From positions 84,047,918 through 84,111,917 of the forward strand of contig OZ038382.1 in assembly GCA_964036045.1 (NCBI GenBank): a DNA stretch of 64,000 nucleotides. The letters run 5' to 3'. The notes under the pieces were generated by a model. It had not been told where the DNA came from. It searched no databases and saw only the letters and a program-made list of their open reading frames with translations. The position numbers and the translations under genes are program-made. Numbering within the stretch: the stretch's first letter is position 1; every line of letters begins with the position of its first letter. The DNA is from Eutreptiella sp. 'Long Island Sound 2002'. Its lineage: Eukaryota > Euglenozoa > Euglenophyceae > Eutreptiales > Eutreptiaceae. Of the stretch, positions 32,246-61,790 are shown in pieces.

Positions 32246-34139
32246 GTTTGAGGTTTGAGGTTTGATTTTGCGGGTACTAGACGCTTTTCGGCCCCGGGGG
32301 GCCACCTGGTCGGGCCAGGTGATATCCTCCCCACCGGGTCCTAGTGGGGGGCCCTCCAAGACGCACCTCCTGCCTGGTGGCGGAGTCCCCCGGGTTCACA
32401 GAGCTCGGAGCCCCGTCCTTCCCCGGCGTCCCCGTTTGGCCACTCCCCGGTCAGTGCATCAATTCGCAGCCGTGGCCGCGGGCGCTTACCCACTGCGTCG
32501 CCCCCCTAATGCGTGGTCGCCCGGGGCACCGGCGCCGCCGGGCCCGTGCTACTGGCTTGTCGCCAGTGGGACCCCCTTGGGCTGGCGCGGAGGCTGCCTA
32601 GCCTAGGGGTTGGGGCGTGGCGCTGTGCGCCACTACTGCCTTGGCGGCTGCAGTGTCCCGTCTGTGTGTGCGCGGCGCTCGCGGCCGGTTCGGGGGGGTT
32701 CGGGCCGGTACCTGGTGTTGTGTCTCCCCTTCTTCCCCCTTCCCGCCCCGCGTATCCCGCGTTGCGTGTGGCGGGCCGTCCCGTCCGGGTGTCCCTTATC
32801 CTCGCTCGCTGGTACGCCATTCCATGTGGTCTGTGCGTTCCGCGCGCTCGGTCCGGTTGCCCTTCTGGCGGTCCCCGCGTGTCCTTTTCGTGTGTGTGCG
32901 CTCGCGCCCTCGCGGTGTCCGCTCCCCGCTGGGTGGTGTGGCGCGCGCATCTCGCGTGGTTCCGGCACTGGGCGCTGGTAGGGCCGTTCCATGTGGTCCA
33001 TGCCCCTCCGCGTGTCCTGCCCCGGTCCCGTGCTCCGTCTGGCGTGCTTGGGGGGGGGCGGTCCGGTCCAGGTTCCCCCCTACTTGTCTTGGGGTTGCGG
33101 GGGCGGCGGCTGGGCGTCCCCGGGGGGCTGCCTTCGTCCGTTGCGTGGGGCGTGGGGCGTTCCTCTTCCCTCATCTGCCCGTCCACTAGGTGGGCTGTCG
33201 GGGTCTGCGTTGCGGGCGTGCGGTTGTGGGGGCCCCGCTCTGTTCTTGCGGGGGGGGAGAGAGGTGTCGTCTTGGTGTCCAGGCGCCGGCCCGCCGGATT
33301 CTCATGACGAGCTTGATGCGCACGGAGCTTTGCCCTGCGGGATGCGTGGGGGGGTTGGGGTGACCGTGGCTGGAGTGGTGCTCCAATGTCCCGGTTCATG
33401 GCCCAGCAGAGCAGCCCTACCGCGGGCTTACTCTTAGTACAGGGGGAGGGGGTTGCGGGCGCGTTTGTTCTGTGACCCGGGTGCCGGTGTATCTCAGAAG
33501 GCAGCCGCCCCGGAGGTAGCGCACCAGGCGCGCGCCGCGAAGGAGCTGGTTCGAACCCCGGGATCGGTGGTCTCCCACCGATCCCTTCGAATACCGGGCG
33601 AGGCCTCCCATCGACCTGTTTGAGTACAGGTGACGGTGCGCACTGCTGCAGGGGTGGGTGGTTCCCATGTCTTTTGTTTTCCTTGGGTGGGGGGTAAAAC
33701 GAACGAGACCTCCACCCGATCCACCGGTATCGGTGGTGGCGCGAGTTGCTGGAGGGGGGGGTGGTTCCCACGTCGCCAACTAGAGAGCTCTACGTGCAGG
33801 GATCCCAGGAGCACCAACGCCCGGGATCGAACCCCCGCACTGGACGATTGAAGACCGACGCTCTCACTACTGGGCCGCGGGAGTCTCTTACGCCACTGAG
33901 GGGTGTCGTCGGCTATGAATCCAGTCCTGAGGGTGGGGCTGCGCGCTGTGAAGCGTGTTGCGCGTGCCGGGAGGCCTCAGCCCACGCGCACGGGGTCGGG
34001 ACAGGGGAGGGGGCTGGGTGGGGTGCGTTGGATCGCCGACTGACGTGCACAGGGGTAAGAGGCGGGCAGTAGCACCACCGGGTCGCCGACTGACTGTAGG
34101 GCGGGGGGTCGCTCTGCCTCTTTCCGTCCCTCTGCCTTC
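32246..34139 (-). other. 3' end of element 4: tail and distal 3' region
   Basis: The sense strand ends in about 2.5 AAACCTC units at 32,246-32,270, a short-repeat tail instead of poly(A). Upstream lies GC-rich sequence with no recognised gene; a 421-codon minus frame is Pro/Arg-rich and compositional. Two similar stretches (gggtggttcccatgtc and ggggtggttcccacgtc) lie near 33,655 and 33,755. tRNA-like B-box strings occur at 33548-33559 (plus) and 33823-33836 (minus). Confidence 0.6.
33560..33585. other. Perfect 11-bp stem hairpin in element 4 3' region
   Basis: Arms GGGATCGGTGG and CCACCGATCCC are separated by a 4-base loop (TCTC). It follows directly after a B-box-like GGTTCGAACCCC. It could act in 3'-end recognition by the RT or in RNA processing; this is inference. 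Confidence 0.55.
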
Positions 34140-36150
34140 CCTGGGCAGGCAACAAAGCGGGCGTCACTGGCGTTGCGCTGTCCATGGGGGGCGTGGCCCC
34201 CCATACCACTCCGGTTCGTGTTCACCCAGCCTCTCCGGGTACGATCTGTGCGGCGTCCCGGTGCGCAGGCGTGGGCCCGCTTGTTCTTCGCGGCCCCCTT
34301 GTGGGCCGGCGGCCGGAGCGGGGGGGCGGGTCACACTCCGGCCCCCCTCTCGGGTGGGGGGGGTCCATTCCCCTTGCCTCGGGGGGGGTGTCGCGCTGCA
34401 GCCTCCCCGCTCTCGTTCGGGGCGGCGGCCTGCGGTACCCCTTTCTGGCCCTCCCCTCCGGCGCGCGCGTGCGGTCGGGGCTGAAGTGCCGCCCCGGGCT
34501 GGGGGGGGGTGAGGGGCGGCCCGTGGACCGCTCCCCTGGGGGCCCCGGCTGACCTGCAAACCCCCCCTCTGTCCCCTCGGAGTGGGCTGTGGTCACGGGA
34601 GGGTCATGTGGGGCGCGGCCTCCTTCGTGTTCCGTTGTGCGCGTTGCTCCGGCACGCCGGTGTGGGTTCGTGGGGGCAGGTCCAGCCGCCGTTGCCCTTA
34701 TCGTGTCGCCGTTCCTCCTGTGGGTGGGGGCGCCCCCCCGGCCCTGGGGGGGCGGAGGGCCGCGCCTGTGGCTCCCCAGCTGGGGTGGGTGCGGGGGGGG
34801 GGGGGGCGCCACCCCGCTCGCTCTCGGGCCTGTGTGGGAGGGGGGGGGGGGGGGAGTGGGGGGGGTCCTTCGGTTCCCTGGCGGTGCCCCCTGTCGGCCA
34901 AAAGGGGGGGGGGGAGGGCGGCTTGGCGGTCCCAGCCCCGGGGGCCAGCCTTCGGCCAGGGGGGTCGCGCCCTTCCCCCGCCCCCCTCTACCGAGTGCCG
35001 GATCCTCACGCAGTCCCTCCCTGGGGCCCCTCATCTCCCGGCCGTTGCCGCGCGGCGCTAGCCGGCCGGGGGTGGCCGTGAGGGTCAGCGGTCAGTGGTT
35101 AGCGGGTTGCGGGGCCGCTTTCCCCGGGTAGGCAACAAAGCGGGCGTCCCTTGGCGTCGTGCTGTCCATGGGGGGCGTGGCCACCCATACCATTCCGGTT
35201 CGCGCCCACCCGGCTTCTCTGGGCACGATCTGCGCGGCGTCCCGGTGCGCAGGCGTGGGCCCACTTGCTCTTCGCGGCCCCCATTGGAGCCGGCGGCTGG
35301 GGCGTCGGGGCGGGTCACACTCCGGCTCCCCTCTCGGGCGGGGGGGTCCGTCCCTTCAGCCTCGGGGGGTGGGGGCCGGGGCCCCTGCGGCTGGCGGGCC
35401 GGTGGGGGGGCGGGGGGGGGGGGGGTGTCGCGCCGCGGCCTCCCTGCTCTCGTTGCAGGCGGCGGCCTGTGGTACTCCTTCCTGGCTCTCTCCGCGTCGC
35501 CGGTGCGCTCCCTTCCGGCGCGCGCTTGCGGTCGGGGCTGAAGTGCCGCCCCGGGGTGGGGGGGGTGAGGGGCGGCCCGTGGACCGCCCCCCTGGGGGCC
35601 CCATCTGACTTGACACCCTTCCTGTGTCACCTCGGAGCGGGCTGTGGTTACGGGAGGGTCATGTGGGGCGCGGCCTCCTTCCTGCTCCGTCGTGCGCGTT
35701 GCCCCGGCACGCCGGTGTGGGTTCGCGGGAGCAGGCCCAGCCGCCGTTGCCCGCATTGCGCCGCTGTTCCCCCTCAGGGGGGGGCGCCCCCCCGGCCCTG
35801 GGGGGGCGGAGGGCCGCGCCTGTGGCTCCCCTGCTGCGGTGGGTGCGGGGGGGGGGGGTGGGGGGGCCGCCCCCTCGCCCGCCCCCGGGTCTGTGCGGGG
35901 GGGGGGGGTGGGTTGGGGGGGGCCCTTTGGCCCCCTGGTGATGCCTCTCGCCGGCCGTGGGGGGGGGGGCGGGGGCGGCATGGCGGCCCTGGTCCCGGGG
36001 GCCAGCCATCGGCCAGGGGGTCGCGCCCTTCACCCGCCCCCCCTATCGAGAGCTGGATGCCCGCGCAGGCCCTCGCCGGCCCTCACCTCCCCGGCCGTTG
36101 CCGCGCGGCGCCGGCCGGCCGGGGGTGGACGTGGGGGTTAGCGGTCAGTG
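34140..36150 (-). repeat. Two ~1-kb tandem repeats in the 3' region of element 4
   Basis: The landmark ggcaacaaagcgggcgtc occurs at ~34,147 and ~35,131. The landmark cagtggttagcgggttgcgg occurs at ~35,093 and, slightly changed, at ~36,145. The units are therefore ~0.98-1.05 kb. Both contain many runs of 7-14 G on the plus strand (C in the element RNA), so antisense DNA may form quadruplexes. Confidence 0.75.
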
Positions 36151-36314
36151 GTTAGCAGGTTGCGGGGCAGCCGGTTCCTCCCCGCGCTTGTCGCCCCCGC
36201 ACTCCCTCCCGCGGGAGGCGGCGCGTCCCCGCACGTCGTGCCATACCGTGGGGGGGGCGTGGGTCAGGGGGCCCATCCCCCCCCCCAACCCTCCCGTACC
36301 CGCCGTCTTGGCCT

Positions 36315-39200: not shown

Positions 39201-39629
39201 TCAGCGCGTCCTGAGGGCGTGCAGCAGGGCTGGGGCGCTACTGCGGAGGGACATGGCAGACCCCGCTCCCGTCAGCCGGAGGGCGTCCCCCATGGACAGG
39301 GGCCGGCCCGACCGATTGGACTCGCGCCACTCCATCCAGTGCCCGTAGAGGGCCGCTTCCGGGCTGATGAGCCCCGGCCGGACGGCGTTCACGATCCGGT
39401 GCATTGCCGGGAGCAGCGTAGGGGCCCCCGCTTCGTTCAGGGCGCGGACGGCCGGGAGGGCGGTCTCGTTGAGGAAGGCCCTCGCACTGCCCTCCAGGTC
39501 GCACCGTGCGGCAGCGTGCGCTCCTTTTGCCTCCGCCACCGCGTCCGCCACCAGGCCCCGGACGGCCGCCTCCTGCGCTCTGCGGCGGGCCCTGGTGTGC
39601 CCCGGCCCATCCCCCCGTCGGCGTGGCAT
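39201..39629 (-). CDS. ORF D: 142-residue basic/alanine-rich protein
   Basis: It starts with a true ATG at 39629, 13 codons after the ORF C stop and in the same frame. It begins MPRRRGDGPGHTRARRRAQ, a basic N-terminus, and is then largely predicted helical (Ala/Leu-rich with LLPAMHRIVNAVRPGL). It ends in TGA at 39201-39203, followed by C and by open coding-like sequence (ORF E) in phase. It may be the initiating part of a D-E fusion made by readthrough. No homologous family is recognised. Confidence 0.6.
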   Translation of the reverse strand: MPRRRGDGPGHTRARRRAQEAAVRGLVADAVAEAKGAHAAARCDLEGSARAFLNETALPAVRALNEAGAPTLLPAMHRIVNAVRPGLISPEAALYGHWMEWRESNRSGRPLSMGDALRLTGAGSAMSLRSSAPALLHALRTR

Positions 39630-45600: not shown

Positions 45601-46364
45601 CAGACGCTCTCCCGCAGGGACCACGGCAGGAGGGGCTCGTTGACCAGGAAAGTGTCCACCCTGTGCTGGGACGGGTGGAGCGTGGGGGTCATGTCCTCCT
45701 CTCCGCCCGCCGCGGCTCTTCGGAAGCCGCAGGCTTCCCAGCCCGCTCGGAAATGCTCCGTGGCCGGGTTGGCGGGGACATCCATGTAGATGTTGGTGTC
45801 ACCGGCGATGACCACCGGGTGCCTCCCGCCGAGGCTGCGTGCCGTGGCATACATTTGTATGTCGGCCCAGAACGCCGCCCGTCCCGCCCACGGGGAGCAA
45901 CCTGCTTGCGGCCCGTGGACGTTGATGAGGGTGAGGCCTCCCCCGTCCGTGCGGATCTCCAGGGCCGCGGCTTTCCCGGGGACAATTTCCGTGAAGCTGA
46001 GCACCTCGTGCTCCGCCACGTACTTGCTGCTGACCGCGGTGAGGAGGCCCCCCCCTCTCGAGGTGGAGGTGGCCCCCGTCTCCGCCAGCCGGCTGCTGAA
46101 GTAGGCGGTGTACCCCTTGTCCCGGAGCGCCGCGGCCACGTGCATCTCCTGCGCCCTGGTGGCGATCCCCGTTTCCTGGAGCATGATGGCAAAGCCCCCC
46201 TCCTGGGGCAGCATGCCGGTGATGAGGTGCTCCTTGTCGGTGCAGGCCGCCGGCCCCCTGCGCCGCCGGAGTGTGTCCCGGAGGGACTGGTCTGGCGGCA
46301 CGAGGCCGTTGCGCAGGTTCCACGAGAGGAGCCACAGGGCGTCGCCCGTCGTGTCCTCCTGGAG
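39669..46364 (-). CDS. ORF C: AP endonuclease - reverse transcriptase - RNase H polyprotein
   Basis: The frame is open from directly after the ORF B TGA. Its first motif LLSWNLRNGL (near 46,320) is the classical N-terminal strand of APE endonucleases, and no AUG precedes it; the first AUG is ~35 codons further in. Numbering from 46,301: APE at 1-250 (LQETGI, VVIAGDTNIYMD near 169, GSDHLPVRL); RT at ~540-860 (GKAPGPNHV, FSFDARKAFDTAPHG, RGVRQGNPES, AYIDDLLVV near 782, YLGLQL); RNase H at ~1384-1510 (DASGGGP, then ATSHHSDALLHKADWAA); zinc knuckle CLFCGG...H...C near 1623; second Cys cluster CRLCGECD...CERC near 2117. It ends in TAA at 39669. This is the retrotransposition enzyme. At ~2,230 codons it is about twice a usual LINE ORF2, with ~600 extra C-terminal residues of unknown role. 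Confidence 0.93.
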   Translation of the reverse strand, partial: LQEDTTGDALWLLSWNLRNGLVPPDQSLRDTLRRRRGPAACTDKEHLITGMLPQEGGFAIMLQETGIATRAQEMHVAAALRDKGYTAYFSSRLAETGATSTSRGGGLLTAVSSKYVAEHEVLSFTEIVPGKAAALEIRTDGGGLTLINVHGPQAGCSPWAGRAAFWADIQMYATARSLGGRHPVVIAGDTNIYMDVPANPATEHFRAGWEACGFRRAAAGGEEDMTPTLHPSQHRVDTFLVNEPLLPWSLRESVWARGMAHPQVVGSDHLPVRLALPGLLSAAGRAAMPTPYSHTEGRLLPYDAEAAPVQHCLWAAVTAAQDEPSLAPWLGPPEQHDYGSMPAAAVDKVFEHLHATHDALARVVGRRQPSPAGTDPAEGDPPESGKQLQAAVLRYDTLAARAPAAYQADAARHGIRSEAALRLTEELQSVSPGFRPTTQGQLQEELERQAAALEEDIRQLRALLAADRKRAIKEFWRRHAPDIAQRWKAVRGAIEVEAPGPSGLWNVRVPNTQTLLTEAHDVMFAVRAFWRELYDKRPVDLPGFQAVLGRHVPRVPEGAWTQVQQYSMQDLKSALDKADGKAPGPNHVEARFIKALPAPVQWLLVHSYRAILRGAPPPMHWRDAHIWLSPKVPGSARLDDYRPIALGQLDMKLLTGPLTQRITEVLTRHGVVSDWQQGALPGSNTGPPLFMAQRQLQRGRPNYVFSFDARKAFDTAPHGALHLILRHLSVPPDVIDLLLFLHTCARLRIVTAHGLTQPVYMLRGVRQGNPESRLLYALLLEPLLRAQGHRLRPPGGAEHGLIQAYIDDLLVVAHTLQHFVEGVEAVAAYLGMMGMELNPRKCAMATTEGVPGLQLRLCPHLENPWYWVPAADSVPYLGLQLQPDGEFSLQRKHRLRLAAVHHWCLNTLAPPKVVQDVILAILGGVTQYVAPFIADDSDTARHLDHITVQVAKDRARYAFDASRDSLQDDRTLGLTRVPTRCQQAAVALVGTLVHHRATSVRAEVTKMFWEIAGAHGICPEVHYPVPEFATLAGGDWVQRIPRALAALGVGMYNPIACPRAAHVQLQSPPGKIVTLRTAKLRHRDTCRLTVPHATPWHGHHGPRHPFPDNDNPWPTAVRECLDQCADEHLHYCRHEQGPTNHPGWRDALAHLFHTTGTRDPRLRLVHPTRAKPDAHTGPRVTPDGLHLHVGGYRRRDGLSPPTRGAAYHPPAALMYILRDVLAESEHQEPNADVAWPEPLRPRPHAPMPLWLVTTDDQCTQAAGQAQLRAEWVIVQVGAGRPEPRGLPRGTALLVATGVPHDPHMAVHALEDRPEDTGHLVVHQRGGPAWLKEHVTALRSWASTVAGAEIRLHDHPAISPGDTRALSVDQLTHSHPDVRWHSTDLNAGWLSPTGYYWILEAWGHTSSDASGGGPCKHATSVALAADLTRTWAVAISGTVPDGEGVAASLPLHYGAHRPWVHTVDAEVILHLLRHADRERTTGVPAGAAKVVNQMPLRWLRDGLCARGQHAGHPFWYVRATSHHSDALLHKADWAASQDTVLQNTPPDPGHAQLIFAGRDGHLDLRPPTMRVLGEVAQRAQTDHALTHRGHTPLGAAHATAYVHARDLTAAATNRRALRARDGHTPVQRRLRVRKERLSGVAIVPQPCLFCGGPEETPVHMHVGCTHSRLLWPHYRQAVHEAARHLPPGDKALWVASWRSAGATWTEVFCSGQVPEDAEAQLRAITRYDPPGGTSVDDFLHHMLRLGDFAWELRNHRLEQLLHDPLSAAARAHRWLTAAEGDHPPPPPRPDKDFVASLRVVNGTLECPLQEGPHPYQDLPGGFSRHLQDALFPPWIIGRGSMTAWEARIVGEEWAREWGRWCAATRAPETPAQRYAAIPLRGWGPDTRPRPTMVRGAGPDHPWDAATGEWLQAAPGPQTGWTGDISSLVRTPVPPRIVLHTANVLRATEIRTWGHAAAAVRWRPPEDGATQLTVAHFKAGGPVYDDALSRLGDTQGPLLLMLPTGMAAALRQELDGCEGLRVGWEAVADGTLLALLHRDTANGCQWDALTPHLTGRHVYMASPPQGHPRPAWDDLIAAFHDHGILPGDTWQEVQRKTLGKDYGRRVRARLLEIRDPLRQRWDDLWLRHLDPWSPPSHLPHTCRLCGECDTVSSAAATGANRCERCTQVAACPWPEPPAGPRRRTQEEALRRRIEGAHTPSHEQAGPAGAALLWIHVHLRDPTSIAHLSHVFAP

Positions 46365-49300
46365 TCAGCTATCCCGCGTCGGCATCGCCGCCGGGTTCGC
46401 TGGTGCCGCCAGGGCATCTGGGTGCGCCGCATCCGCTGAGCCCGTTCCCAGCGGGGCCCACAAGGGGGCCCGGGGGACCGGGGGAGTCAGGGGGGCCAGG
46501 GGGGCCAGCCCCGCGGGGATGGACATGGACCCTGGTGGGGCCGCACCGCCGGCCCCCGGGGCCGCTCCGGGTGCCTCCTCACCTCCATCTGCGTGGTCGG
46601 CTGCCTGGGGCGGGGGGCGCCGGGTGTACGGGGCCTGCCACGGGGACCTCCGTGCTCTCCCCTGCAGGATGTTGGCGGCCGCCTCCTTGTCGTCTGCCGG
46701 AGCCGCAGCGTGCACCGCGTGCCACGCCAGGTGTTCCAGCATCGCCCCGCTGGTGTAGTACTTGTCCGCACACAGGGGGCATTTCGTCGGCTCCGTGGCC
46801 CCTCGCGCCGGGGGGAGCTGCACTGACTTCCGAATGGCGCCCTCCGCCGCTGGTTCGAAGGGCAGGTTGGCCAGCGGCACCGTGTGTGGTGCCAGCGTGC
46901 GGCCCGGGGCCGCCGCATCGAGGGCTCGCGTCGCGGGCGCGGGCCCGAGGCCTCGGGCGGCATCGCGCTGCGCGTCCGCTTGCAGCCACGTTTGCCAGTG
47001 CGTGGAGCCGATTTGGCGGTCGGGTTTGCTCCTCCACCGCAGGTCGTGGAAGGCCTGTAGCCAGTGGTACACCGTGGTCGGGACCGCCAGCTGGAGTTCC
47101 AGGTCGGCGGGGTGCGCCGGTGCCGGCCACACTCCCGGCCTCGCCGCCCGGGCGTTGTCCTTCAGCCTGACCTGGAGCAGGAGGGCGTGGTGTTCGCCCT
47201 CCCGCAGCGCCTTGATGATCATGCGTGTGCAGTCTGCCAAGCGGATCACGGCTTCGGGCCCCGGCAGGCGTTCAGGGTCGCAGACGACGACGTGCGCGTC
47301 CGCCGGGCTGAACATGCAGACCACCCACTGTGGGTTCTGCTGCCCCCGTTGGGCCACCGCCAGGGTAGCCGCTGGGCGGGCGTGCGTGATGGGCCCCGCG
47401 TGGAGGTCCGGGACGTCTGTGGCCCTGATGGCGTCTCCCTGCCACGCGGCCCGTAGATGCTCCTCCTGGTCGGGGCTCCACACCAGTGTGGGGGGGTTGA
47501 CCCACCCCGGTTCCTGCCTCTTGTTGGGGGCGCTGACAGTGTGCAGCAGGACCGCCAGCGGCCAGGGGTCCGCCGACATGTAGTAGGCCTGCCTGGGCCC
47601 CTGTCGCCAGTCGACGTGGGACAGGGGCGGGAATGCCCCTTGTCTGGCGGTGCTGTGCCAGACCGCCCATCGGCCTCCGGCCAGGATGTGCGACCGGTAC
47701 CCTCCGGCGTGGCCGTGTACGATGGCTTGGTAGCCTGCCGTCTGCAGTACCAGCGCCTCCCCCTGCTTAGGCCCGGGCGGGGGTGCGCCATCGCCCGCAC
47801 CCCAGACGCGGGTGCGCCCGCGGAGTGTGGTATGCCACGGGTCTGGTGCATCGCGCTGGGGCCCTTGTATGCATCCCGCAATTTGCGCCGGGCCGTGGTG
47901 GTGGACGAAGCTCTCCCCGCCGTCTGCTAGCAAAGCCGCCGCGACGACGTATAGTTGCTCCGCCGTGAAGGGCGCCGTCGGCTCGTGCGTCGCGGCCGGC
48001 CGTCGGGGCCGCGTGTCGCGGCAGGGGACGTGGGGCAGCAGCTGCGCCGGCCACGCCGCCACTGGACCCATGGTGACGGCCGCGACCGCGGACGCCAGCG
48101 CCGTGCGGTCCGTGGGTCTGTACTGCCGGAGTCCCGTGGTATCTCGGGTGAGGTGCCTGCAGGCTGCCATCCAGGCCACCGCTCCGCAGTTCGTGCAGTC
48201 CGGTTCGGCACCGCTCGCATCGTCGCCTCCCCACTGCTGTACCGTGGTGGCGGTGTCGAGCGGGGGGCCCCGCTGTAGCGCCTCCGGGCCCTGCCCCGGC
48301 GGGAGGGCGGGCGGGATTGGCTGCGGGTAGTTTTGCGCGCCCCGGCGCTCCGGGTGCGTGTGGTACGGGTTCTGCCGGCGGTGTTCCGGGGCTGCCCGTG
48401 GCTGGAAGAGGAGCTGGTGCAGGTACCAGTGGCCCTCCGCGGCGGACGGATTGCGGAGCGTTAGCCACTGTTCCACCACGCCTCCTGGGTGCGCGGCCTC
48501 GACGCGGCGCTGCAACCCCAGGCGGCCTAGGCGGTTGGACGTGTCCGCGGGTGGGATGTGTGCCTGCGGGTAGAGCACCCGCAGCGGCTCCAGCGCCAGG
48601 TCCAGCACTTCGTCGTTGAGCTGCTTCGTGAGGGCCGACGCCCTGTGTAGGGCGTGGAGGACCCCGGGTGTGGGGGCCGTGAGCTGTTCGAGCACCGGTC
48701 CCGGCGGGTACCGCGTACCCAGGTTCGTCAGCCACTCCCTGGTGTGGCTCAGTACGGCTTTCCACACGTCCCTTGTAAAGGCGTGCCGGGGGGCCAATGA
48801 GGGGACCATCCGTAGGAGGCGGTGGCACGCCGGCGGCGACCGCATGGGCTGTGGGGCGGCCGCCGTGATCCACCTGCACGCCGTGCCGGGCACGATTGCC
48901 CCCCATTCCACGGTCCCCATGCCCTCGGCATGAATCAGCGCCTGGCCTTGGACCATGGGGAAATAGGGGCTCGAGCGCCCCTTCCCTTCCCTCCACCGTA
49001 CCCAGGCGGCCCCTGCCTGCAGGCTGCGGAGCAGGGCCACGCCGGGGAGGGGCGGCTGCGGGAAAGCCCCCTTGACGGCCTGGGTGGCGTGGGCCAAGGT
49101 GCCCATTGGTAAGTACCACAACGGGAGGGTCCAGGGGCCCGGCAGTGGTTGCGCCACCCCTGCGTCCCATCGCCACTCGGAGTCTGGCGGGGCGGCCGGG
49201 ACCGTGCCCGTCTGCAGGAAGTGGCGTGCATACTTGTCGGGGTGCCGTTGGAGGGTTGCCGCGAGGCTGAGCCCCTCCGCCGCTGGTGCCACCGGGAGGC

Positions 49301-49628: not shown

Positions 49629-50165
49629 TCACGCGTGGGTGACGCGGTCGACGGCCTCCTGGATGTTCACGCTGCCGCGCGCGGTCTCATCCAGGATCCA
49701 GCCCTGCGTCACCCCGTAGCGTAGGGCGGCGCGTGCGGCCGCGGGTTTCACCTCGGGCAACGCTCCGTCGTCGGCATCGGGCTGGGGGTGCTGTTTGGGG
49801 CACCGGCATTCGCCGGTGCAATGGCCCCGTTTCCACGCGGGGCAGATCGCGGATACGCTGCCCGCCGGCGGCGCAGGTTCCGCGGGCGCGCCCCCCGTGG
49901 GGGGCTCCGGCAATGCCTCCAGGTCGGAGTCTGTGCCCGTGTCCTCTTGTGGGGGGTCTCCTTCGCCGTCTCTGAGTCCCAGCGCCCTGATGACCTCGTG
50001 TGCTTCGTCCAGCGTCGGAGATCGGGGGCGTGTCTTGCGTGGTGCCGCGGGTTCCGCCATTGCTATGTCGCTGTGTCTAAGAGCAGGGGGCGGGGTGCGG
50101 ATGTCCCGTGGCTGGTGCGTTGGTGCGTTGGTGCGTTGCTCGGTGTGGGGGCGGTGGATGGGCAT
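49629..50165 (-). CDS. ORF A: small CCCH zinc-finger protein
   Basis: ATG codons occur at 50165 (within the last satellite monomer) and at 50060 (MAEPAAPRK…); the second is outside the array and may be the real start, giving ~143 residues. The protein has an acidic/Pro-rich N-terminus and one clear CCCH finger, C-x7-C-x5-C-x3-H (CPAWKRGHCTGECRCPKQH), of the RNA-binding type. A helical C-terminal segment ends VDRVTHA, then TGA (49629-49631) followed by CAG and in-phase ORF B. It is the first ORF downstream of the 212-bp array and probably starts the A-B-C translation unit. Confidence 0.7.
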   Translation of the reverse strand: MPIHRPHTEQRTNAPTHQPRDIRTPPPALRHSDIAMAEPAAPRKTRPRSPTLDEAHEVIRALGLRDGEGDPPQEDTGTDSDLEALPEPPTGGAPAEPAPPAGSVSAICPAWKRGHCTGECRCPKQHPQPDADDGALPEVKPAAARAALRYGVTQGWILDETARGSVNIQEAVDRVTHA

Positions 50166-53100
50166 CCCCGGGGGGGCGCCTTCCAGTGTTGCGAGGGGCG
50201 TCCGGTGTTAGGCGCTGTCCCTCCCCCGGCCGCTCGTCCTCCGGAGCGTGCAGCCAGGGTTCCGCGACCCGCGTGTCCCGGGCGCGGTCGATGCGGGCAG
50301 TGGACCCTGCACCGGCCCCACAGCGTGTGCCCTTGCGGGCCGGCGTTGCTCGCTGTGGGGGTGGCGGGAGGGCGTCCCCGGGGGGGGGTGCCTTCCACCG
50401 TTGTGAGGGGCGCCTGGTGTCAGGCGCTGTCCCTCCCCCGGCCGCTCGTCCTCCGGAGCGTGCAGCCAGGGTTCCGCGACCCGTGTGTCCCGGGTGCGGT
50501 CGATGCGGGCATGTGGACCCAGCACCGGCCCCACAGCGTGCGCCCTTGCGGGCCGGCGTTGCTCGCTGTGGGGGTGGCGGAAGGGCGTCCCTGGGGGGGT
50601 GCCTTCCACCGTTGTGAGGGGCGCCTGGTGTCAGGCGCTGTCCCTCCCCCGGCCGCGCTCGCCCTTCGTAGCGTGCAGCCAGGGTTCCGCGACCCGTGTG
50701 TCCCGGGCGCGGTCGATGCGGGCGTGTGGACCCAGCACCGGTCCCACAGCGTGCGCCCTTGCGGGCCGACGCTGCTCGCTGTGGGGCTGGCGGAATGGCG
50801 TCCCCGGGGGGGGTGCTTTCCACCGTTCTGAGGGGCGCCTGGTGTCAGGCGCTGTCCCTTCCCTGGCCGCTCGTCCTCCGGAGCGCGCAGCCAGGGTTCC
50901 GCGACCCGTGTGTCCCGGGTGCGGTCGATGTGGGCGTGTGGACCCAGTACCGGCCCCACGGCGTGCGCCCTTGCGGGCCGGCGTTGTTCGCTGTGGGGGT
51001 GGCGGGAGGGCGTCCCCGGGGGGGGCTGCCTTCCACCGTTGTGAGGGGCGCCTGGTGTCAGGCACTGTCCCTCCCTCGGCCGCTCGTCCTCCGGAGCGTG
51101 CAGCCAGGTTCCGCGACCCGCGTGTCCCGGGCGCGGTCGATGCGGGCAGTGGACCCAGCACCAGCCCCACAGCGTGCGCCCTTGCGGGCCGAAGCTGCTC
51201 GCCGTGGGGGTGGCGGAAGGGCGTCCCAGGGGGGGGTGCCTTCTACCGTCGTGAGGGGCGCCTGGTGTCAGGCGCTGTCCCTCCCCCGGCCACTCGTCTT
51301 CCGGAGCGTGCAGCCAGGGTTCCGCGACCCGCGTGTCCCGGGTGCGGTCGATGCGGGCGTGTGGACCCAGCACCGGCCCCACAGCGTGCGCCCTTGCGGG
51401 CCGGTGTTGCTCGCTGTGGGGGTGGCGGAAGGGTGTCCCCGGGGGGGGTGCTTTCCACCGTTCTGAGGGGCGCCTGGTGTCAGGCGCTGTCCCTTCCCTG
51501 GCCGCTCGTCCTCCGGAGCGCGCAGCCAGGGTTCCGCGACCCGTGTGTCCCGGGTGCGGTCGATGTGGGCGTGTGGACCCAGTACCGGCCCCACGGCGTG
51601 CGCCCTTGCGGGCCGGCGTTGTTCGCTGTGGGGGTGGCGGGAGGGCGTCCCCGGGGGGGGCTGCCTTCCACCGTTGTGAGGGGCGCCTGGTGTCAGGCAC
51701 TGTCCCTCCCTCGGCCGCTCGTCCTCCGGAGCGTGCAGCCAGGTTCCGCGACCCGCGTGTCCCGGGCGCGGTCGATGCGGGCAGTGGACCCAGCACCAGC
51801 CCCACAGCGTGCGCCCTTGCGGGCCGAAGCTGCTCGCTGTGGGGGTGGCGGAAGGGCGTCCCCGGGGGGGGTGCTCTCCACCGTTGTGAGGGGCGCCTGG
51901 TGTCAGGCGCTGTCCCTCCCCCGGCCGCTCGTCCTCCGGAGCGTGCAGCCAGGGTTCCGTGACCCGCGTGTCCCGGGTGCGGTCGATGCGGGCGTGTGGA
52001 CCCAGCACCGGCCTCACAGCGTGCGCCCTTGCGGGCCGGCGTTGCTCGCTGTGGGGGTGGCGGAAGGGCGTCCCCGGGGGGGGTGCCTTCTACCGTTGTG
52101 AGGGGCGCCTGGTGTTAGGCGCTGTCCCTCCCCCGGCCGCTCGTCCTCCGGAGCGTGCAGCCAGGGTTCCGCGACCCACGTGTCCCGGGCGCGGTCGGTG
52201 CGGGCGTGTGGACCCAGCACCGGCCCCACAGCGTGCGCCCTTGCGGGCCGGCGTTGCTCGCTGTGGGGGTGGCGGAGGGGCGCCCCCCGGGGGGGTGCCT
52301 ACCACCGTTGTGAGGGGCGCCTGGCGTCAGGCGCTGTCCCTCCCCCGGCCGCTCGTCCTTTGGAGCGTGCAGCCGGGGTTCTGCGACCCGTGTGTCCCGG
52401 GTGCGGTCGATGCGGGCGTGTGGACCCAGCACCGGCCCCGCAGCGTGCGCCCTTGCGGGCCGGCGTTGCTCGCTGTGGGGGTGGCGGAAGGGCGTCCCCG
52501 GGGGGGGTGCCTTCCACCGTTGTGAGGGGCGCCTGGTGTCAGGCGCTGTCCCTTCCCCGGCCGCTCGTCCTCCGGAGCGTGCAGCCAGAGTTCCGCGACC
52601 CTTGTGTCCCGGGTGCGGTCGGTGCGGGCGTGTGGACCCAGCACCAGCCCCACAGCGTGCGCCCTTGCGGGCCGGCGTTGCTCGCTGTGGGGGTGGCGGA
52701 AGGGCGTCCCCGGGGGGGGTGCCTTCCACCGTTGTGAGGGGCGCCTGGTGTCAGGCGCTGTCCCTTCCCCGGCCGCTCGTCCTCCGGAGCGTGCAGCCAG
52801 GGTTCCGCGACCCGTGTGTCCCCGGTGCGGTCGATGCGGGCGTGTGGACCCAGCATCGGCCCCACAGCGTGCGCCCTTGCGGGCTGGCGTTGCTCGCTGT
52901 GGGGGTGGCGGAAGGGCGTCCCCGGGGGGGGTGCCTCCCACCGTTGTGAGGGGCGCCTGGTGTCAGGCGCTGTCCCTCCCCCGGCCGCTCGTCCTCTGGA
53001 GCGTGCAGCCAGGGCTCCGCGACCCGCGTGTCCCGGGCGCGGTTGATGTGGGCGTGTGGACCCAGCACCAGCCTCACAGCGTGCGCCCTTGCGGGCCGGC

Positions 53101-56100
53101 GTTGCTCGCTGTGGGGGTGGCGGAGGGGCGCCCCCCGGGGGGGTGCCTACCACCGTTCCGAGGGGCGCCTGGCGTCAGGCGCTGTCCCTCCCCCGGCCGC
53201 TCGTCCTTTGGAGCGTGCAGCCGGGGTTCTGCGACCCGTGTGTCCCGGGTGCGGTCGATGCGGGCGTGTGGACCCAGCACCGGCCCCGCAGCGTGCGCCC
53301 TTGCGGGCCGGCGTTGCTCGCTGTGGGGGTGGCGGAAGGGCGTCCCCGGGGGGGGTGCCTTCCACCGTTGTGAGGGGCGCCTGGTGTCAGGCGCTGTCCC
53401 TTCCCCGGCCGCTCGTCCTCCGGAGCGTGCAGCCAGGGTTCCGCGACCCTTGTGTCCCGGGTGCGGTCGGTGCGGGCGTGTGGACCCAGCACCGGCCCCA
53501 CAGCGTGCGCCCTTGCGGGCCGGCGTTGCTCGCTGTGGGGGTGGCGGAAGGGCGTCCCCGGGGGGGGTGCCTTCCACCGTTGTGAGGGGCGCCTGGTGTC
53601 AGGCGCTGTCCCTTCCCCGGCCGCTCGTCCTCCGGAGCGTGCAGCCAGGGTTCCGCGACCCGTGTGTCCCCGGTGCGGTCGATGCGGGCGTGTGGACCCA
53701 GCATCGGCCCCATAGCGTGCGCCCTTGCGGGCTGGCGTTGCTCGCTGTGGGGGTGGCGGAAGGGCGTCCCCGGGGGGGGTGCCTCCCACCGTTGTGAGGG
53801 GCGCCTGGTGTCAGGCGCTGTCCCTCCCCCGGCCGCTCGTCCTCTGGAGCGTGCAGCCAGGGCTCCGCGACCCGCGTGTCCCGGGCGCGGTTGATGTGGG
53901 CGTGTGGACCCAGCACCAGCCTCACAGCGTGCGCCCTTGCGGGCCGGCGTTGCTCGCTGTGGGGGTGGCGGAAGGGCGTCCCCGGGGCGGCTGCCTTCCG
54001 CCGTTGTGAGGGGCGCCTGGTGTCAGGCGCTGTCCCCCCCCCGGCCGCTCGTCCTCCGGAGCGTGCAGCTAGGGTTCCGCGACCCGCGTGTCCCGGGTGC
54101 GGTCGATGCGGGCGTGTGGACCCAGCGCCGGCCCCACAGCGTGCGCCCTTGCGGGCTGGCGTTGCTCGCTATGGGGGTGGCGGAAGGGTGTCCCCGGGGG
54201 GGGTGCCTTCCACCGTTGTGAGGGGCGCCTGGTGTCAGGCGCTGTCCCTCCCCCGGCTGCCCGTCCTCCGGAGCGTGCAGCCAGGGTTCCGCGACCCGTG
54301 TGTCCCGGGTGCGGTCGATGCGGGCGTGTGGACCCAGCACCAGCCCCACAGCGTGCGCCCTTGCTGGTCGGCGTTGCTCGCTGTGGGGGCGGCAGAAGGG
54401 CGTCCCCGGGGGGGGTGCCTTCCACCGTTGTGAGGGGCGCCTGGTGTCAGGCGCTGTCCCTCCCCCGGCTGCTCGTCCTCCGGAGCGCGCAGCCAGGGTT
54501 CCGCGACCCGTGTGTCCCGGGTGCGGTCGATGCGGGCGTGTGGACCCAGCACCGGCCCCACAGCGTGCGCCCTTGCGGGCCGGCGTTGCTCGCTGTGGGG
54601 GTGGCGGAAGGGCGTCCCCGGGGGGGGCTGCCTTCCACCGTTGTGAGGGGCGCCTGGTGTCAGGCACTGTCCCTCCCTCGGCCGCTCGTCCTCCGGAGCG
54701 TGCAGCCAGGTTCCGCGACCCGCGTGTCCCGGGCGCGGTCGATGCGGGCAGTGGACCCAGCACCAGCCCCACAGCGTGCGCCCTGGCGGGCCGACGCTGC
54801 TCGCTGTGGGGGTGGCGGAAGGGCGTCCCCGGGGGGGGTGCCTTCTACCGTCGTGAGGGGCGCCTGGTGTCAGGCGCTGTCCCTCCCCCGGCCACTCGTC
54901 TTCCGCAGCGTGCAGCCAGGGTTCCGCGACCCGCGTGTCCCGGGTGCGGTCGATGCGGGCGTGTGGACCCAGCACCGGCCCCACAGCGTGCGCCCTTGCG
55001 GGCCGGTGTTGCTCGCTGTGGGGTTGGCGGAAGGGCGTCCCCGGGGGGGGTGCCTTCCACCGTTGTGAGGGGCGCCTGGTGTCAGGCGCTGTCCCTCCCC
55101 CGGCCGCTCGTCCTCCGGAGCGTGCAGCCAGGGTTCCGTGACCCGCGTGTCCCGGGTGCGGTCGATGCGGGCGTGTGGACCCAGCACCGGCCTCACAGCG
55201 TGCGCCCTTGCGGGCCGGCGTTGCTCGCTGTGGGGGTGGCGGAAGGGCGTCCCCGGGGGGGGTGCCTTCTACCGTTGTGAGGGGCGCCTGGTGTTAGGCG
55301 CTGTCCCTCCCCCGGCCGCTCGTCCTCCGGAGCGTGCAGCCAGGGTTCCGCGACCCGCGTGTCCCGGGCGCGGTCGGTGCAGGCGTGTGGACCCAGCACC
55401 GGCCCCACAGCGTGCGCCCTTGCGGGCCGGCGTTGCTCGCTGTGGGGGTGGCGGAGGGGCGCCCCCGGGGGGGGTGCCTACCACCGTTGTGAGGGGCGCC
55501 TGGCGTCAGGCGCTGTCCCTCCCCCGGCCGCTCGTCCTTTGGAGCGTGCAGCCGGGGTTCTGCGACCCGTGTGTCCCGGGTGCGGTCGATGCGGGCGTGT
55601 GGACCCAGCACCGGCCCCGCAGCGTGCGCCCTTGCGGGCCGGCGTTGCTCGCTGTGGGGGTGGCGGAAGGGCGTCCCCGGGGGGGGGTGCCTTCCACCGT
55701 TGTGAGGGGCGCCTGGTGTCAGGCGCTGTCCCTTCCCCGGCCCCTCGTCCTCCGGAGCGTGCAGCCAGGGTTCCGCGACCCTTGTGTCCCGGGTGCGGTC
55801 GGTGCGGGCGTGGGGACCCAGCACCGGCCCCACAGCGTGCGCCCTTGCGGGCCGGCGTTGCTCGCTGTGGGGGTGGCGGAAGGGCGTCCCCGGGGGGGGT
55901 GCCTTCCACCGTTGTGAGGGGCGCCTGGTGTCAGGCGCTGTCCCTTCCCCGGCCGCTCGTCCTCCGGAGCGTGCAGCCAGGGTTCCGCGACCCGTGTGTC
56001 CCGGGTGCGGTCGATGCGGGCGTGTGGACCCAGCATCGGCCCCACAGCGTGCGCCCTTGCGGGCTGGCGTTGCTCGCTGTGGGGGTGGCGGAAGGGCGTC

Positions 56101-59100
56101 CCCGGGGGGGGTGCCTTCCACCGTTGTGAGGGGCGCCTGGTGTCAGGCGCTGTCCCTCCCCCGGCCGCTCGTCCTCTGGAGCGTGCAGCCAGGGCTCCGC
56201 GACCCGCGTGTCCCGGGCGCGGTTGATGTGGGCGTGTGGACCCAGCACCAGCCTCACAGCGTGCGCCCTTGCGGGCCGGCGTTGCTCGCTGTGGGGGTGG
56301 CGGAAGGGCGTCCCCGGGGGGGCTGCCTTCCGCCGTTGTGAGGGGCGCCTGGTGTCAGGCGCTGTCCCCCCCCCGGCCGCTCGTCCTCCGGAGCGTGCAG
56401 CTAGGGTTCCGCGACCCGCGTGTCCCGGGTGCGGTCGATGCGGGCGTGTGGACCCAGCACCGGCCCCACAGCGTGCGCCCTTGCGGGCTGGCGTTGCTCG
56501 CTATGGGGGTGGCGGAAGGGTGTCCCCGGGGGGGGTGCCTTCCACCGTTGTGAGGGGCGCCTGGTGTCACGCGCTGTCCCTCCCCCGGCTGCCCGTCCTC
56601 CGGAGCGTGCAGCCAGGGTTCCGCGACCCGTGTGTCCCGGGTGCGGTCGATGCGGGCGTGTGGACCCAGCACCGGCCCCACAGCGTGCGCCCTTGCGGGT
56701 CGGCGTTGCTCGCTGTGGGGGCGGCAGAAGGGCGTCCCCGGGGGGGGTGCCTTCCACCGTTGTGAGGGGCGCCTGGTGTCAGGCGCTGTCCCTCCCCCGG
56801 CTGCTCGTCCTCCGGAGCGCGCAGCCAGGGTTCCGCGACCCGTGTGTCCCGGGTGCGGTCGATGCGGGCGTGTGGACCCAGCACCGGCCCCACAGCGTGC
56901 GCCCTTGCGGGCCGGCGTTGCTCGCTGTGGGGGTGGCGGAAGGGCGTCCCCGGGGGGGCCGCCTTCCACCGTTGCGAGGGGCGCCTGGTGTCAGGCGCTG
57001 CCCCTCCCCCGGCCGCTCGTCCTCCGGAGCGTGCAGCCAGGGTTCCGCGACCCGTGTGTCCCGGGTGCGGTCGATGCGGGCGTGTGGACCCAGCACCGGC
57101 CCCACAGCGTGCGCCCTTGCGGGCCGGCGTTGCTCGCTGTGGGGGTGGCGGAAGGGCGTCCCCGGGGGGGGTGCCTTCCACCGTTGTGAGGGGCGCCTGG
57201 TGTCAGGCGCTGTCCCTCCCCCGGCTGCTCGTCCTCCGGAGCGCGCAGCCAGGGTTCCGCGACCCGTGTGTCCCGGGTGCGGTCGATGCGGGCGTGTGGA
57301 CCCAGCACCGGCTCCACAGCGTGCGCCCTTGCGGGCTGGCGTTGCTCGCTGTGGGGGTGGCGGAAGGGTGTCCCCGGGGGGGGTGCCTTCCACCGTTGTG
57401 AGGGGCGCCTGGTGTCAGGCGCTGTCCCTCCCCCGGCTGCCCGTCCTCCGGAGCGTGCAGCCAGGGTTCCGCGACCCGTGTGTCCCGGGTGCGGTCGATG
57501 CAGGCGTGTGGACCCAGCACCGGCCCCACAGCGTGCGCCCTTGCGGGTCGGCGTTGCTCGCTGTGGGGGCGGCAGAAGGGCGTCCCCGGGGGGGGTGCCT
57601 TCCACCGTTGTGAGGGGCGCCTGGTGTCAGGCGCTGTCCCTCCCCCGGCTGCTCGTCCTCCGGAGCGCGCAGCCAGGGTTCCGCGATGCGTGTGTCCCGG
57701 GTGCGGTCGATGCGGGCGTGTGGACCCAGCACCGGCCCCACAGCGTGCGCCCTTGCGGGCCGGCGTTGCTCGCTGTGGGGGTGGCGGAAGGGCGTCCCCG
57801 GGGTGGCCGCCTTCCACCGTTGCGAGGGGCGCCTGGTGTCAGGCGCTGCCCCTCCCCCGGCCGCTCGTCCTCCGGAGCGTGCAGCCAGGGTTCCGCGACC
57901 CGTGTGTCCGGGGTGCGGTCGATGCGGGCGTGTGGACCCAGCACCGGCCCCACAGCGTGCGCCCTTGCGGGCCGGCGTTGCTCGCTCTGGGGGTGGCGGA
58001 AGGGCGTCCCCGGGGGGGGTGCCTTCCACCGTTGCGAGGGGCGCCTGGTGTCAGGCGCTGTCCCTCCCCCGGCCGCTCGTCCTCCGGAGCGTGCAGCCAG
58101 GGTTCCGCGACCCGCGTGTCCCGGGCGCGGTCGGTGCGGGCGTGTGGACCCAGCACCGGCCCCACAGCGTGCGCCCTTGCGGGCCGGCGTTGCTCGCTGT
58201 GGGGGTGGCGGAGGGGCGCCCCCAGGGGGGGTGCCTACCACCGTTGTGAGGGGCGCCTGGCGTCAGGCGCTGTCCCTCCCCCGGCCGCTCGTCCTTTGGA
58301 GCGTGCAGCCGGGGTTCTGCGACCCGTGTGTCCCGGGTGCGGTCGATGCGGGCGTGTGGACCCAGCACCGGCCCCGCAGCGTGCGCCCTTGCGGGCCGGC
58401 GTTGCTCGCTGTGGGGGTGGCGGAAGGGCGTCCCCGGGGGGGGTGCCTTCCACCGTTGTGAGGGGCGCCTGGTGTCAGGCGCTGTCCCTTCCCCGGCCGC
58501 TCGTCCTCCGGAGCGTGCAGCCAGGGTTCCGCGACCCGTGTGTCCCGGGTGCGGTCGGTGCGGGCGTGTGGACCCAGCACCGGCCCCACAGCGTGCGCCC
58601 TTGCGGGCCGGCGTTGCTCGCTGTGGGGGTGGCGGAAGGGCGTCCCCGGGGGGGGGTGCCTTCTACCGTTGTGAGGGGCGCCTGGTGTCAGGCGCTGTCC
58701 CTCCCCCGGCCGCCCGTCCTCCGGAGCGTGCAGCCAGGGTTCCGCGACCCGTGTGTCCCGGGTGCGGTCGATGCGGGCGTGTGGACCCAGCGCCGGCCCC
58801 ACAGCGTGCGCCCTTGCGGGTCGGCGTTGCTCGCTGTGGGGGCGGCAGAAGGGCGTCCCCGGGGGGGGTGCCTTCCACCGTTGTGAGGGGCGCCTGGTGT
58901 CAGGCGCTGTCCCTCCCCCGGCTGCTCGTCCTCCGGAGCGCGCAGCCAGGGTTCCGCGACCCGTGTGTCCCGGGTGCGGTCGATGCGGGCGTGTGGACCC
59001 AGCACCGGCCCCACAGCGTGCGCCCTTGCGGGCCCGCGTTGCTCGCTGTGGGGGTGGCGGAAGGGCGTCCCCGGGGGGGGTGCCTTCCACCGTTGCGAGG

Positions 59101-59765
59101 GGCGCCTGGTGTCAGGCGCTGCCCCTCCCCCGGCCGCTCGTCCTCCGGAGCGTGCAGCCAGGGTTCCGCGACCCGTGTGTCCCGGGTGCGGTCGATGCGG
59201 GCGTGTGGATCCAGCACCGGCCCCACAGCGTGCGCCCTTGCGGGCCGGCGTTGCTCGCTGTGGGGGTGGCGGAAGGGCGTCCCCGGGGGGGGCTGCCTTC
59301 CACCGTTGTGAGGGGCGCTTGGTGCCAGGCGCTGTCCCTCCCCCGGCCGCTCGTCCTCCGGAGCGTGCAGCCAGGGTTCCGCGACCCGTGTGTCCCGGGT
59401 GCGGTCGATGCGGGCGTGTGGACCCAGCACCGGCCCCACAGCGTGCCCCCTTGCCGGCCGGCGTTGCTCGCTGTGGGGGTGGCGGAAGGGCGTCCCCGGG
59501 GGGGGCTGCCTTCCACCGTTGTGAGGGGCGCTTGGTGCCAGGCGCTGTCCCTCCCCCGGCTGCCCGTCCTCCGGAGCGTGCAGCCAGGGTTCCGCGACCC
59601 GCGTGTCCCGGGTGCGGTCGGTGTGGGCGTGTGGACCCAGCACCGGCCCCACAGCGTGCGCCCTTGCGGGCCGGCGTTGCTCGCTGTGGGGGTGGCGGAA
59701 GGGCGTCCCCGGGGGGGGTGCCTTCCACCATGGTGAGGGGCGCTTGGGGTCAGGCGCTGTCCCTC
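50140..59765 (-). repeat. 212-bp tandem array, about 45 monomers (9.6 kb)
   Basis: The landmark cccgggtgcggtcgatgcgg recurs about every 212 bp from ~50,275 to ~59,605. Each monomer carries a perfect 7-bp hairpin (GCGCCTG-GTGT-CAGGCGC), lost by point changes in a few copies, and a G-run of 6-9. Higher-order copies occur: a four-monomer block (848 bp) near 52,115-52,960 is almost repeated at 52,960-53,810, and a variant carrying gcgggcagtggacccag recurs three monomers apart. The array lies directly upstream of ORF A in element sense. Open frames of ~200 codons in rotating frames are artefacts of a 212-bp (3n+2) stop-poor unit. Confidence 0.95.
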
Positions 59766-61790
59766 TCCCGTCTGCCCGCCCACTGCCGGGTGGGTTGCCG
59801 GGGTTCGTTGGGTGTGTGCGGTGTGTGTGGTGTCTGTGCCGTGCGTGTCGTGGTGCGTGGTGCTGCTCTTTCCTTGGTCCTCCGGTGCTCCCCTCTCCGG
59901 TGTCTTGGTGCGGTGTTGTGCTCGCCGTGTGCCCGCCGTGTCCCCTCCTCTGTGTGCGCCCCTTGCTCGTTCGCTGGCTACCCCTTGTTCCTTTCGCGGC
60001 TTCGTTGCTCTTTACCCTTTCCTCTACTCCTCTCCCTGGCATGCACTTTTTCCCTGCCTCCGCTTTGTTGCGTGTCTCTGTCTTTTTCCTTGTCGGCCCG
60101 CGCTTCCTCTTTTGAACCTGCGTAGGGAGAGAAAGGTGCGTAAACAAGCGTGCGGCGGCGGCGGTTTTGTCGCGACACGGCACCTCGAGCTGGCTGGTAC
60201 GTCATGCGACATTCGTGTGCGACCGGCTTGCGTGTAGGTTTATCGCCCCACTTGCTCCCGGCTTGTCTCCACCCCCCTTTGGTCACTACCTTTTCTCGTC
60301 GCCCGTTCCGCGCGCGCGGCGTGACATGCAACATACCTGCCTCTTTCCCCACTACCTTAACGTGTCCTAGTCCTCCCGCCTTGTCGGGCGTTCGCTTATA
60401 TGTGACGACGGCACGACGCAATACTTGCCTAAGCGTCTAAGACAACCCTACTTTAACGCCCGGACGACGCAGACACGAGCATACGCTTCTCTTCGGGACC
60501 TGTGAGGATAGAACATGGGTGCGTGCACGTGTGTTTGTTGGGACCCGGCACTCGCCGGCGCTATGCTATTTGTGTGTTTGCTCCTCATGTCCCCCTCCCT
60601 GGCTATTTGTGTGTTCTAACCCACGCAACTCCGCGGTTGGCGACGTGGCACGACATGGTAACATACTTGCGTTCTTGGTGGCGGTGTGTGGCTTGTCTAC
60701 TATTCGTTTGCATGCGGCGGCATACCTTTTGTTCCCTTTCGCTCCCTTTCGCCTCCTACATAAGCGGGCGTGCGGGTGGGCGACGGGCACGTCTCGGTTA
60801 CGTAGCGTAGCGTGGCAACATACTTGGACCCCACTAGTCACGTGTGTATGCTTGGTTTTTTTTTTTTTTTTTTTTTTTTTGTGTTGTGCTTTACCTCGGT
60901 GGTCTTTTTGTTCCTTCCTGTTTGTCCCTTCATACCATGTTGCTCGTCCGTGGCGGTGATGGCCTTGCGGCGTTCCGGGCATGCGCGTGCGGGCATACCT
61001 TTCTTTCCCTATGTGAGCGGGGGTGAGCATAGGCGTTCTTTCGGTGCCACCTCTTGTTGGTTTTCCTTGCCGGTGCGGTTTTCGTTGCGCTTTTCGTGGC
61101 GGCGCACTTTGGCGTTGCTTAACACGTTACTTGTTTTGCGCTTGTTACGGCGTTATGCACACAACATATGGCACATAACATACTTGCTTTCCGGCGGCCG
61201 GTGGCGTTGTTGTTGCTTGTGTGTATTTTTCATGCACGACATTCCACATACTTGGGTACATGTGCGGCCTCTTGCTCTTTTTGTTGTGATCCCCTTCGCG
61301 CGTATTTCCTACATGAGCGGGCTTGCATTGCTTGGTCGTGTACTTGTGGTATATCTCCACCGTGGTGCGGTTCGTTACCTATTTATTCTCCTTGTCTACC
61401 TTTTTCCGCGTTGTGCTTGTTTCGTTGGTTTCTAGCGGTGCGCGGCACATAACATACTTGCTTGTCGGCGGCCGGTGGCGTTGTTGTTGTCTATGTGTGG
61501 GTTGTTTGGGGGCGCGCACAAGTCCCTAGCGCCTAGGGCACGCACTTTGCTAGGTGGTTTGGGGCAAGCAACGCTCAGTTTCTTCGCCGTCGCGACTCTA
61601 TTGTTCGTCTTTTTCGGTGAGTGTCCTATATTTTGCGACCTCGCCAAACAGCGGCGTAAAATTGTTGTGGGGGTTTCTGAGGTCGGAAAAGACGATTTTT
61701 CGCTTTATTTCTGCTGGCGGTGCGTCTTTTTCTCGTAATTTTATTTTTCTTCTGCTGCGATCGCGCGACGATTGGAGGAGACTGTCTATA
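59766..61790 (-). other. 5' leader of element 4
   Basis: About 2 kb of unique sequence between the 5' end and the 212-bp array, with no convincing ORF. On the plus strand it carries a 24-base T run at ~60,857-60,880. A recurring ACATACTTG(C/G) string occurs at 60661, 60819, 61178, ~61246 and 61453. A ~50-bp duplication (61170-61219 and 61445-61492) contains cggcggccggtggcgttgtt. These may be transcription or packaging signals; no function can be assigned. Confidence 0.6.

Follow-up and report, generated by a model that had tools for sequence, protein, structure and literature searches.

The window analysed in this study is a stretch of 64,000 nucleotides from Eutreptiella sp. 'Long Island Sound 2002', corresponding to C5:84047918-84111917 (contig OZ038382.1) of the 2,280,300,865-bp (2.28-Gb) assembly GCA_964036045.1. 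It contained an insertion of 29,545 bp, which we identify with high confidence as one full-length member of a giant family of long interspersed nuclear elements (LINEs) of the APE type. A preliminary description of the window had read the whole interior of the insertion as one minus-strand element, and this was borne out. In the sense direction (minus strand) the element consisted of 21 copy-specific nucleotides, a leader, a tandem array, three consecutive open reading frames (ORF1, ORF2 and ORF3), a 3' untranslated region (UTR) and an (AAACCTC)n tail. Table 1 shows the positions of these features.

Table 1. Features of the insertion and its target-site duplications, in window coordinates.
Feature	Position	Strand
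Target-site duplication, left copy, 17 bp	32229..32245	+
Whole insertion, read as a single LINE, 29,545 bp	32246..61790	-
3' tail, ~2.9 AAACCTC units (tail length differs among copies)	32246..32265	-
3' UTR, ~4 kb	32266..36314	-
Tandem ~1-kb duplication in the 3' UTR, 79%	34134-35118 / 35117-36171	-
ORF3, 1,104 codons	36315..39629	-
ORF2, 2,231 codons	39669..46364	-
In-frame UGA (UGA CUC) between ORF1 and ORF2	46365..46367	-
ORF1, 1,231 codons	46365..50060	-
Tandem array, 45 full 212-bp units and a partial one	50133..59781	-
5' leader, ~2 kb, lower G+C, degenerate ~270-bp repeats	59782..61769	-
Copy-specific 5' addition (filler), 21 nt, past the common 5' end of the family	61770..61790	-
Target-site duplication, right copy, 17 bp	61791..61807	+

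The 17-mer TGCAAGTGTCTGATGGG was found exactly at both edges of the insertion, as first described, and a whole-assembly search found it at no other site, while its reversed control occurred once in the assembly. With up to 3 mismatches, TGCAAGTGTCTGATGGG had 4 sites in the window against 0.23 expected. The right outer arm (61791 to ~62565) aligned to 15830-16601 and shared 741 of 772 aligned bases with it. The left arm (32182-32245), just 64 bp long, aligned to 15784-15846, and the two loci diverged further left. The claim that both flanks together rebuild the uninterrupted sequence at 15.8-16.6 kb was upheld over these arms. On this uninterrupted paralogue the two arms overlapped by exactly the 17-bp duplication; the insertion therefore comprises 29,545 bp and is bounded by a target-site duplication of 17 bp.

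Within the window copy, the array units had a mean pairwise identity of 94.7% and a G+C content of 75%, and multi-unit duplications were present among them. G+C in 1-kb steps was ~51-56% in the leader against 67-78% elsewhere in the element, and related ~270-bp leader repeats lay on either side of an A25 tract (T25 on the plus strand at 60856-60880). Without its array the element still measured ~19.9 kb. Self-BLAST (E 1e-10 or better, pieces of at least 120 bp) found no terminal repeats linking the two ends, and the Rfam scan of the window at gathering scores gave no match. The 3' terminal fold was not stronger than those of shuffles (z -0.70), and a relic of a dinoflagellate spliced leader was looked for within the window and not found. 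A candidate degenerate array unit in the 3' UTR (~33.1-33.2 kb) scored 45 against a shuffle maximum of 43, was equalled by another 3' UTR stretch and was not used.

Analysis on Pfam placed an APE endonuclease at amino acids 13-269 of ORF2 (PF03372, E=2.4e-9) and a reverse transcriptase (RT) at 638-881 (PF00078, E=1.7e-20), with a weak zf-RVT match under the cut-off at 1626-1670; the ten best PDB matches of ORF2 were R2 and L1 proteins. The preliminary description had given this ORF an RNase H domain as well, and that part was not confirmed: Pfam showed no RNase H in the window ORF2, P0001, P0002 or P0005, and hhalign against RNase H-bearing LINEs gave a sole 17-column alignment with a probability of 0.07%. 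RNase H is carried by the LINE clades I, Tad, R1 and others. By eye, aligned acidic residues in two families form a D..E..D..D-like pattern, as in the RNase H motif, so that a divergent domain may be present. For ORF1, neither a Pfam match nor a significant relative in PDB was found; by eye it carried a CCCH-like motif near the N-terminus and a C2H2-like motif near the C-terminus. AlphaFold gave a mean predicted local distance difference test score of 32.7 for ORF1, which was confident just around the C2H2-like motif, and of 31.4 for the C-terminal half of ORF2. A cysteine protease in ORF1, considered at first, was unsupported. ORF3 had no Pfam match, and no integrase was matched by Pfam in any of the three ORFs.

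ORF1, ORF2 and ORF3 aligned gap-free to predicted proteins of other contigs with 94.3, 98.9 and 96.2% identity, respectively; ORF2, compared from the P0002 start (an ATG within the APE domain, at 46214), showed no lesion against P0002. G+C at codon positions 1/2/3, computed without a control frame, was.75/.58/.84 in ORF1,.74/.52/.86 in ORF2 and.79/.64/.86 in ORF3, a skew that would be expected of coding sequence. The protein search, in ENA contigs of up to several Mb, returned clusters of 438 member sequences for ORF2, 439 and 177 for ORF1 and 171 for ORF3. It also returned a second LINE family (P0005-P0010), whose P0005 ORF2 was ~43% identical and whose main cluster held 1,283 member sequences. 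In the RT tree the window family and P0005-P0010 shared a long branch, and Haematococcus lacustris P0025 fell in another set. The second family may also be giant. No close relatives of an ORF2 piece were found in viral and prokaryote contigs.

A search of the assembly with the 5' end gave 2,077 first-look candidates, 40 of which were scored, the window included. The 5' end was matched at 99% in all 39 other scored places, and the matches stopped at query position 279 (25 places), 280 (8), 281 (3), 282 (2) or 284 (1). The common 5' end of the family is 61,769 (query 279), the longer matches being likely chance extensions; base 61770 (C in sense) was common to the ten copies sampled below and differed in 25 of the 39 places. 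Both ends of the insertion were as preliminarily described, and the family end expected near 61,790 was not, 61770-61790 being copy-specific. Ten copies were sampled (ranks 2-11 of the 5'-end list, with matches running to 280-282); as the best-scoring 5' ends they are biased toward window-like copies, and truncated copies and endings at the array edge are invisible to a 5'-end query. Among the predicted proteins, P0227 and P0244 look like truncated copies inside other genes. All ten started CGTCGCGCGATCGC after unrelated flanks. A probe placed 20 kb from the 5' end matched the element at ~24.4-26.6 kb in 9/10, and the 3' end was reached in 9/10, each through the last base of the window element and with tails of differing length. 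A separate 3'-end search gave 42 matches among 40 scored of 1,078 candidates.

The nine both-ended copies lay on seven contigs of 50-180 Mb and measured 22,554-25,185 bp from the C of CGTCGCG to the last base (C14a 22,725; C11 24,014; C9 22,554; C4 22,703; C18 23,619; C15 23,983; C14b 25,185; C5a 22,939; C5b 23,145 bp). Seven of the nine had their own target duplication of 15-18 bp: C14a 15, C11 17, C9 15, C4 16, C15 17 and C5b 18 bp (each reached in 0/500 shuffles), and C18 15 bp, read directly from the sequence rather than scored; up to four tail-side bases of these lengths may instead be part of the tail. A filler separated the duplication from CGTCGCG, with 3-27 nt in these seven copies and 20 nt in the window (one nucleotide more in each if the C is counted as filler). 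C5a and C5b carried a nearly identical 12-nt stretch, AGTCC[GA]ATTTCA, ahead of the common 5' end. The shared tail and 5' end and the separate duplications of 10-20 bp agree with what the preliminary description had foreseen for independent copies. The surprise is not a lone 29.5-kb locus; it is a family in which 9/10 sampled 5' ends belong to both-ended copies of more than 22 kb. That a full-length copy is of unusual size was correct for the family, and 29.5 kb is the length of the window copy, inflated by its array.

Several observations weigh against reading these copies as one family of complete elements. The tenth sampled copy, C21, had no match at the 12, 16, 20 or 24 kb probes, and no clean duplication was found in C14b (3 bp) and C5a (7 bp, a length reached in 90/500 shuffles). 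The window copy itself has two in-frame stops, a TGA at codon 144 of ORF1 (49629-49631) and one at codon 143 of ORF3 (39201-39203). A 9.6-kb array is difficult to assemble, so that two half-sites might have been joined across a collapsed or expanded repeat. This is highly improbable, as nine other copies on their seven long contigs have the same ends and matching insides at the probed points.

From the offset of the 20-kb probe, the array was estimated at ~16-25 units in eight copies (C5a not among them) against 45 in the window, on the assumption that the length difference sits in the array. The ~1-kb repeat of the 3' UTR, as inferred from length, would be present once in 6/9 and twice in 3/9 of the 3' ends. 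Growth and shrinkage of the 212-bp array likely set most length differences, and the 29.5-kb copy is a long individual, mainly through an array about twice as long as that of the others. The window array, with its multi-unit duplications, would also suit an element of ordinary LINE length that was lengthened after insertion by in-place expansion of the array (and nested pieces), its RNA never having been so long. We regard this as unlikely: the window copy minus its array remains far above that length, the eight computed copies keep their smaller arrays, and in-place growth would explain 29.5 versus 24 kb but not 24 kb, and at the ~23-kb scale such growth is refuted by the nine both-ended copies. 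The leader/array junction was also continuous, at 97-99%, in all five copies probed there.

The array is likely a promoter or other cis-acting part. In the predicted proteins P0087, P0125, P0137, P0168 and P0180 the array translation runs into ORF1, P0113 matches the array in the opposite orientation, and in P0232 the array is fused to ORF3. In the translated upstream parts of nine proteins, no common register of array units between copies was seen beyond the stretch adjacent to ORF1.

An array-only relative was met by chance in the 200 kb beside the window (n=1). At C5:83962811-83974527 (11.7 kb), ~50 array units immediately preceded the final ~985 bp of the element (81%), and the tail was identical; tblastn found no ORF1, ORF2 or ORF3 in it. 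It started near the array, without the 2-kb leader, and was flanked by a direct duplication of 309 bp, whose copies differed at 25/309 positions and which is far longer than 15-18 bp. This relative is possibly a non-autonomous partner, a lead from one copy; if it moved as a unit, the array and the 3' end would suffice in cis. A further stretch, C5:84207410-84208197, was 71.5% identical to the last ~790 bp of the element, followed by a different tail, and may represent the 3' end of a family more distantly related.

The leaderless start of this relative, the lower G+C of the leader and its A25 tract would fit an origin from two elements, either side by side or by template switching, with a LINE ending at the array and a separate polyadenylated RNA as the leader. 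Such an origin has very little probability in our view, given that the five probed copies share one leader/array junction, the leader 5' end recurs in 39 other places and the A25 tract is bracketed by related repeats. It survives only if the two parts fused long ago and have been mobilised together ever since.

ORF1 and ORF2 share one frame, with UGA and then CUC at their boundary. Sequence near the junction was retrieved from nine copies: in five (C11, C15, C18, C5a and C5b) it spanned the junction, in C9, C4 and C14a it lay upstream, and in C14b there was no match. In 5/5 covering copies the junction was GATAGC TGA CTCCAGGAGGACACG, with UGA CUC CAG GAG GAC ACG identical throughout. The end motif of ORF1 was found in 13 of 120 listed ORF1 proteins, 12 of which stop at the same residue. 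In the window and the five copies alike, the stretch from the UGA to the APE domain contained no in-frame AUG, and because of this an ORF1-ORF2 fusion by readthrough is predicted. Readthrough at UGA-C would be our preferred route to the fusion, at about even chances. Two results count against it: P0013 reads through the ORF1 end with no stop, and the Thr of the window is replaced by Met in P0001 and P0013, so that ORF2 may have possessed a normal start in older copies. Over 696 codons near the junction, eight copies differed from the window by 14 synonymous and 16 nonsynonymous changes with no stop gained, which points strongly in neither direction.

The Met of P0001 and P0013 falls where the window and all five readable copies have ACG, 12 nt past the stop, and it is possible, though somewhat less probable, that ORF2 starts at this near-cognate ACG after termination of ORF1. 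ACG starts are usually weak, and the common frame of ORF1 and ORF2 is required by readthrough but not by reinitiation. ORF3, whose start lies 39 nt past the ORF2 stop, would need reinitiation.

The precise ends, the duplications, the tail, the domains, the succession of parts and nine both-ended copies of 22.6-25.2 kb were all observed. The insertion itself likely arose when one RNA of roughly its own length was copied by target-primed reverse transcription. The machinery of the element likely copies in one go an RNA several times longer than that of a usual LINE. The RNA would begin at the leader, with GTCGCGCGATCGC at the transcript start. ORF1 would be translated, and some ribosomes would pass UGA-C to give an ORF1-ORF2 fusion with APE and RT, ORF3 then being reached by reinitiation. 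The APE would nick the target, and the RT would start in the AAACCTC tail and run through ORF3, ORF2, ORF1, the G+C-rich array and the leader. Joining to the upper strand would add a few to ~28 nt of 5' filler and leave the 15-18-bp duplication. The combined proposal, that at hundreds of loci a 22-30-kb RNA unit is copied over its whole length, across a minisatellite of 75% G+C, with a UGA-readthrough fusion, a third ORF after the RT, and an array and 3' end sufficient in cis for array-only partners, is tentative, its chance as a whole falling a little short of even.

The surroundings of the insertion contained a Ty3/gypsy-like element on the minus strand (22362-29837), whose pol ORF has a weak Dam-methyltransferase-like stretch before the RT (PF05869, E=0.0032, under the cut-off). 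Two ~820-bp direct repeats (15784-16601, and 32182-32245 with 61791-62565), ~96% alike in the longer arm, flank this element; they might be its long terminal repeats (LTRs), the LINE then sitting in an LTR. Minisatellites of 127 bp lay on either side of the gypsy-like element (17111-19216 and 30178-31319), and a 98.9% repeat of the start of this element's gag-like ORF lay beside one 127-bp minisatellite (19219-19750 and 29644-30175). Inverted 65-bp minisatellites, 82% alike, were found at 3432-5462 and 7901-9907. Outside the window, C5:84158119-84169969 contained long satellites with periods of 47, 52 and 10 bp.

The window family resembles APE-type LINEs such as mammalian L1, whose ORF2p structures matched ORF2 here, in its APE-RT protein, short variable target duplication, lack of terminal repeats and ORF1 ahead of ORF2, with a short-repeat tail standing in for poly(A). 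In contrast to mammalian L1, it is ~3-5 times longer, carries a third ORF past the RT ORF, and has ORF1 and ORF2 in one frame around UGA, with an ORF1 that has no detectable Pfam or PDB relative. Dualen/RandI are also algal LINEs with large APE-RT proteins. Haematococcus lacustris P0025 is likewise a large algal APE-RT protein, but of a different RT-tree set. The monomer unit of mouse L1 is ~200 bp. According to passages of PMC9022269, mouse L1 has tandem units in the 5' UTR before ORF1 whose number varies among copies, with an average of 3-4 monomer units in the youngest groups and more than 10 at seven loci. Compared with these, the array numbers here are 45 and ~16-25 units, and the array is internal, 2 kb behind the 5' end in the window and in 5/5 probed copies.

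Other giant retroelements are described in parts of a review (PMC6431247). Terminons, which occur in bdelloid rotifers and reach 40 kb, are giant Penelope-like elements with extra ORFs; they are endonuclease-deficient and telomeric and have hammerhead motifs (PMC6431247). Both Terminons and the window family are giant non-LTR elements with extra ORFs, whereas the latter has an APE, 15-18-bp duplications and no Rfam match in the window. Burro (>30 kb, high copy number) and Ogre (16-25 kb) are giant LTR retrotransposons (PMC6431247); the window family is of the same size class and, like Burro, of high copy number, but has no LTRs and carries an APE. The examined parts of PMC6431247 name no giant LINE, and among the listed titles of the open-licence literature none concerned giant or three-ORF LINEs or readthrough in LINEs, the nearest being that same review.

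The window family consists of LINEs in the size range of Terminons and Burro, and it adds LINEs to the giant retroelements of the Penelope-like and LTR groups. It is a clear example of a retrotransposon that carries a minisatellite and multiplies it, and it may show stop-codon readthrough as an expression strategy of LINEs. Most copies of ordinary LINEs are truncated, and the usual picture of LINE insertion is that of a short, abortive process. Repeated complete insertion of 23-25 kb would imply either an RT of very high processivity or some mechanism selecting for completed copies.

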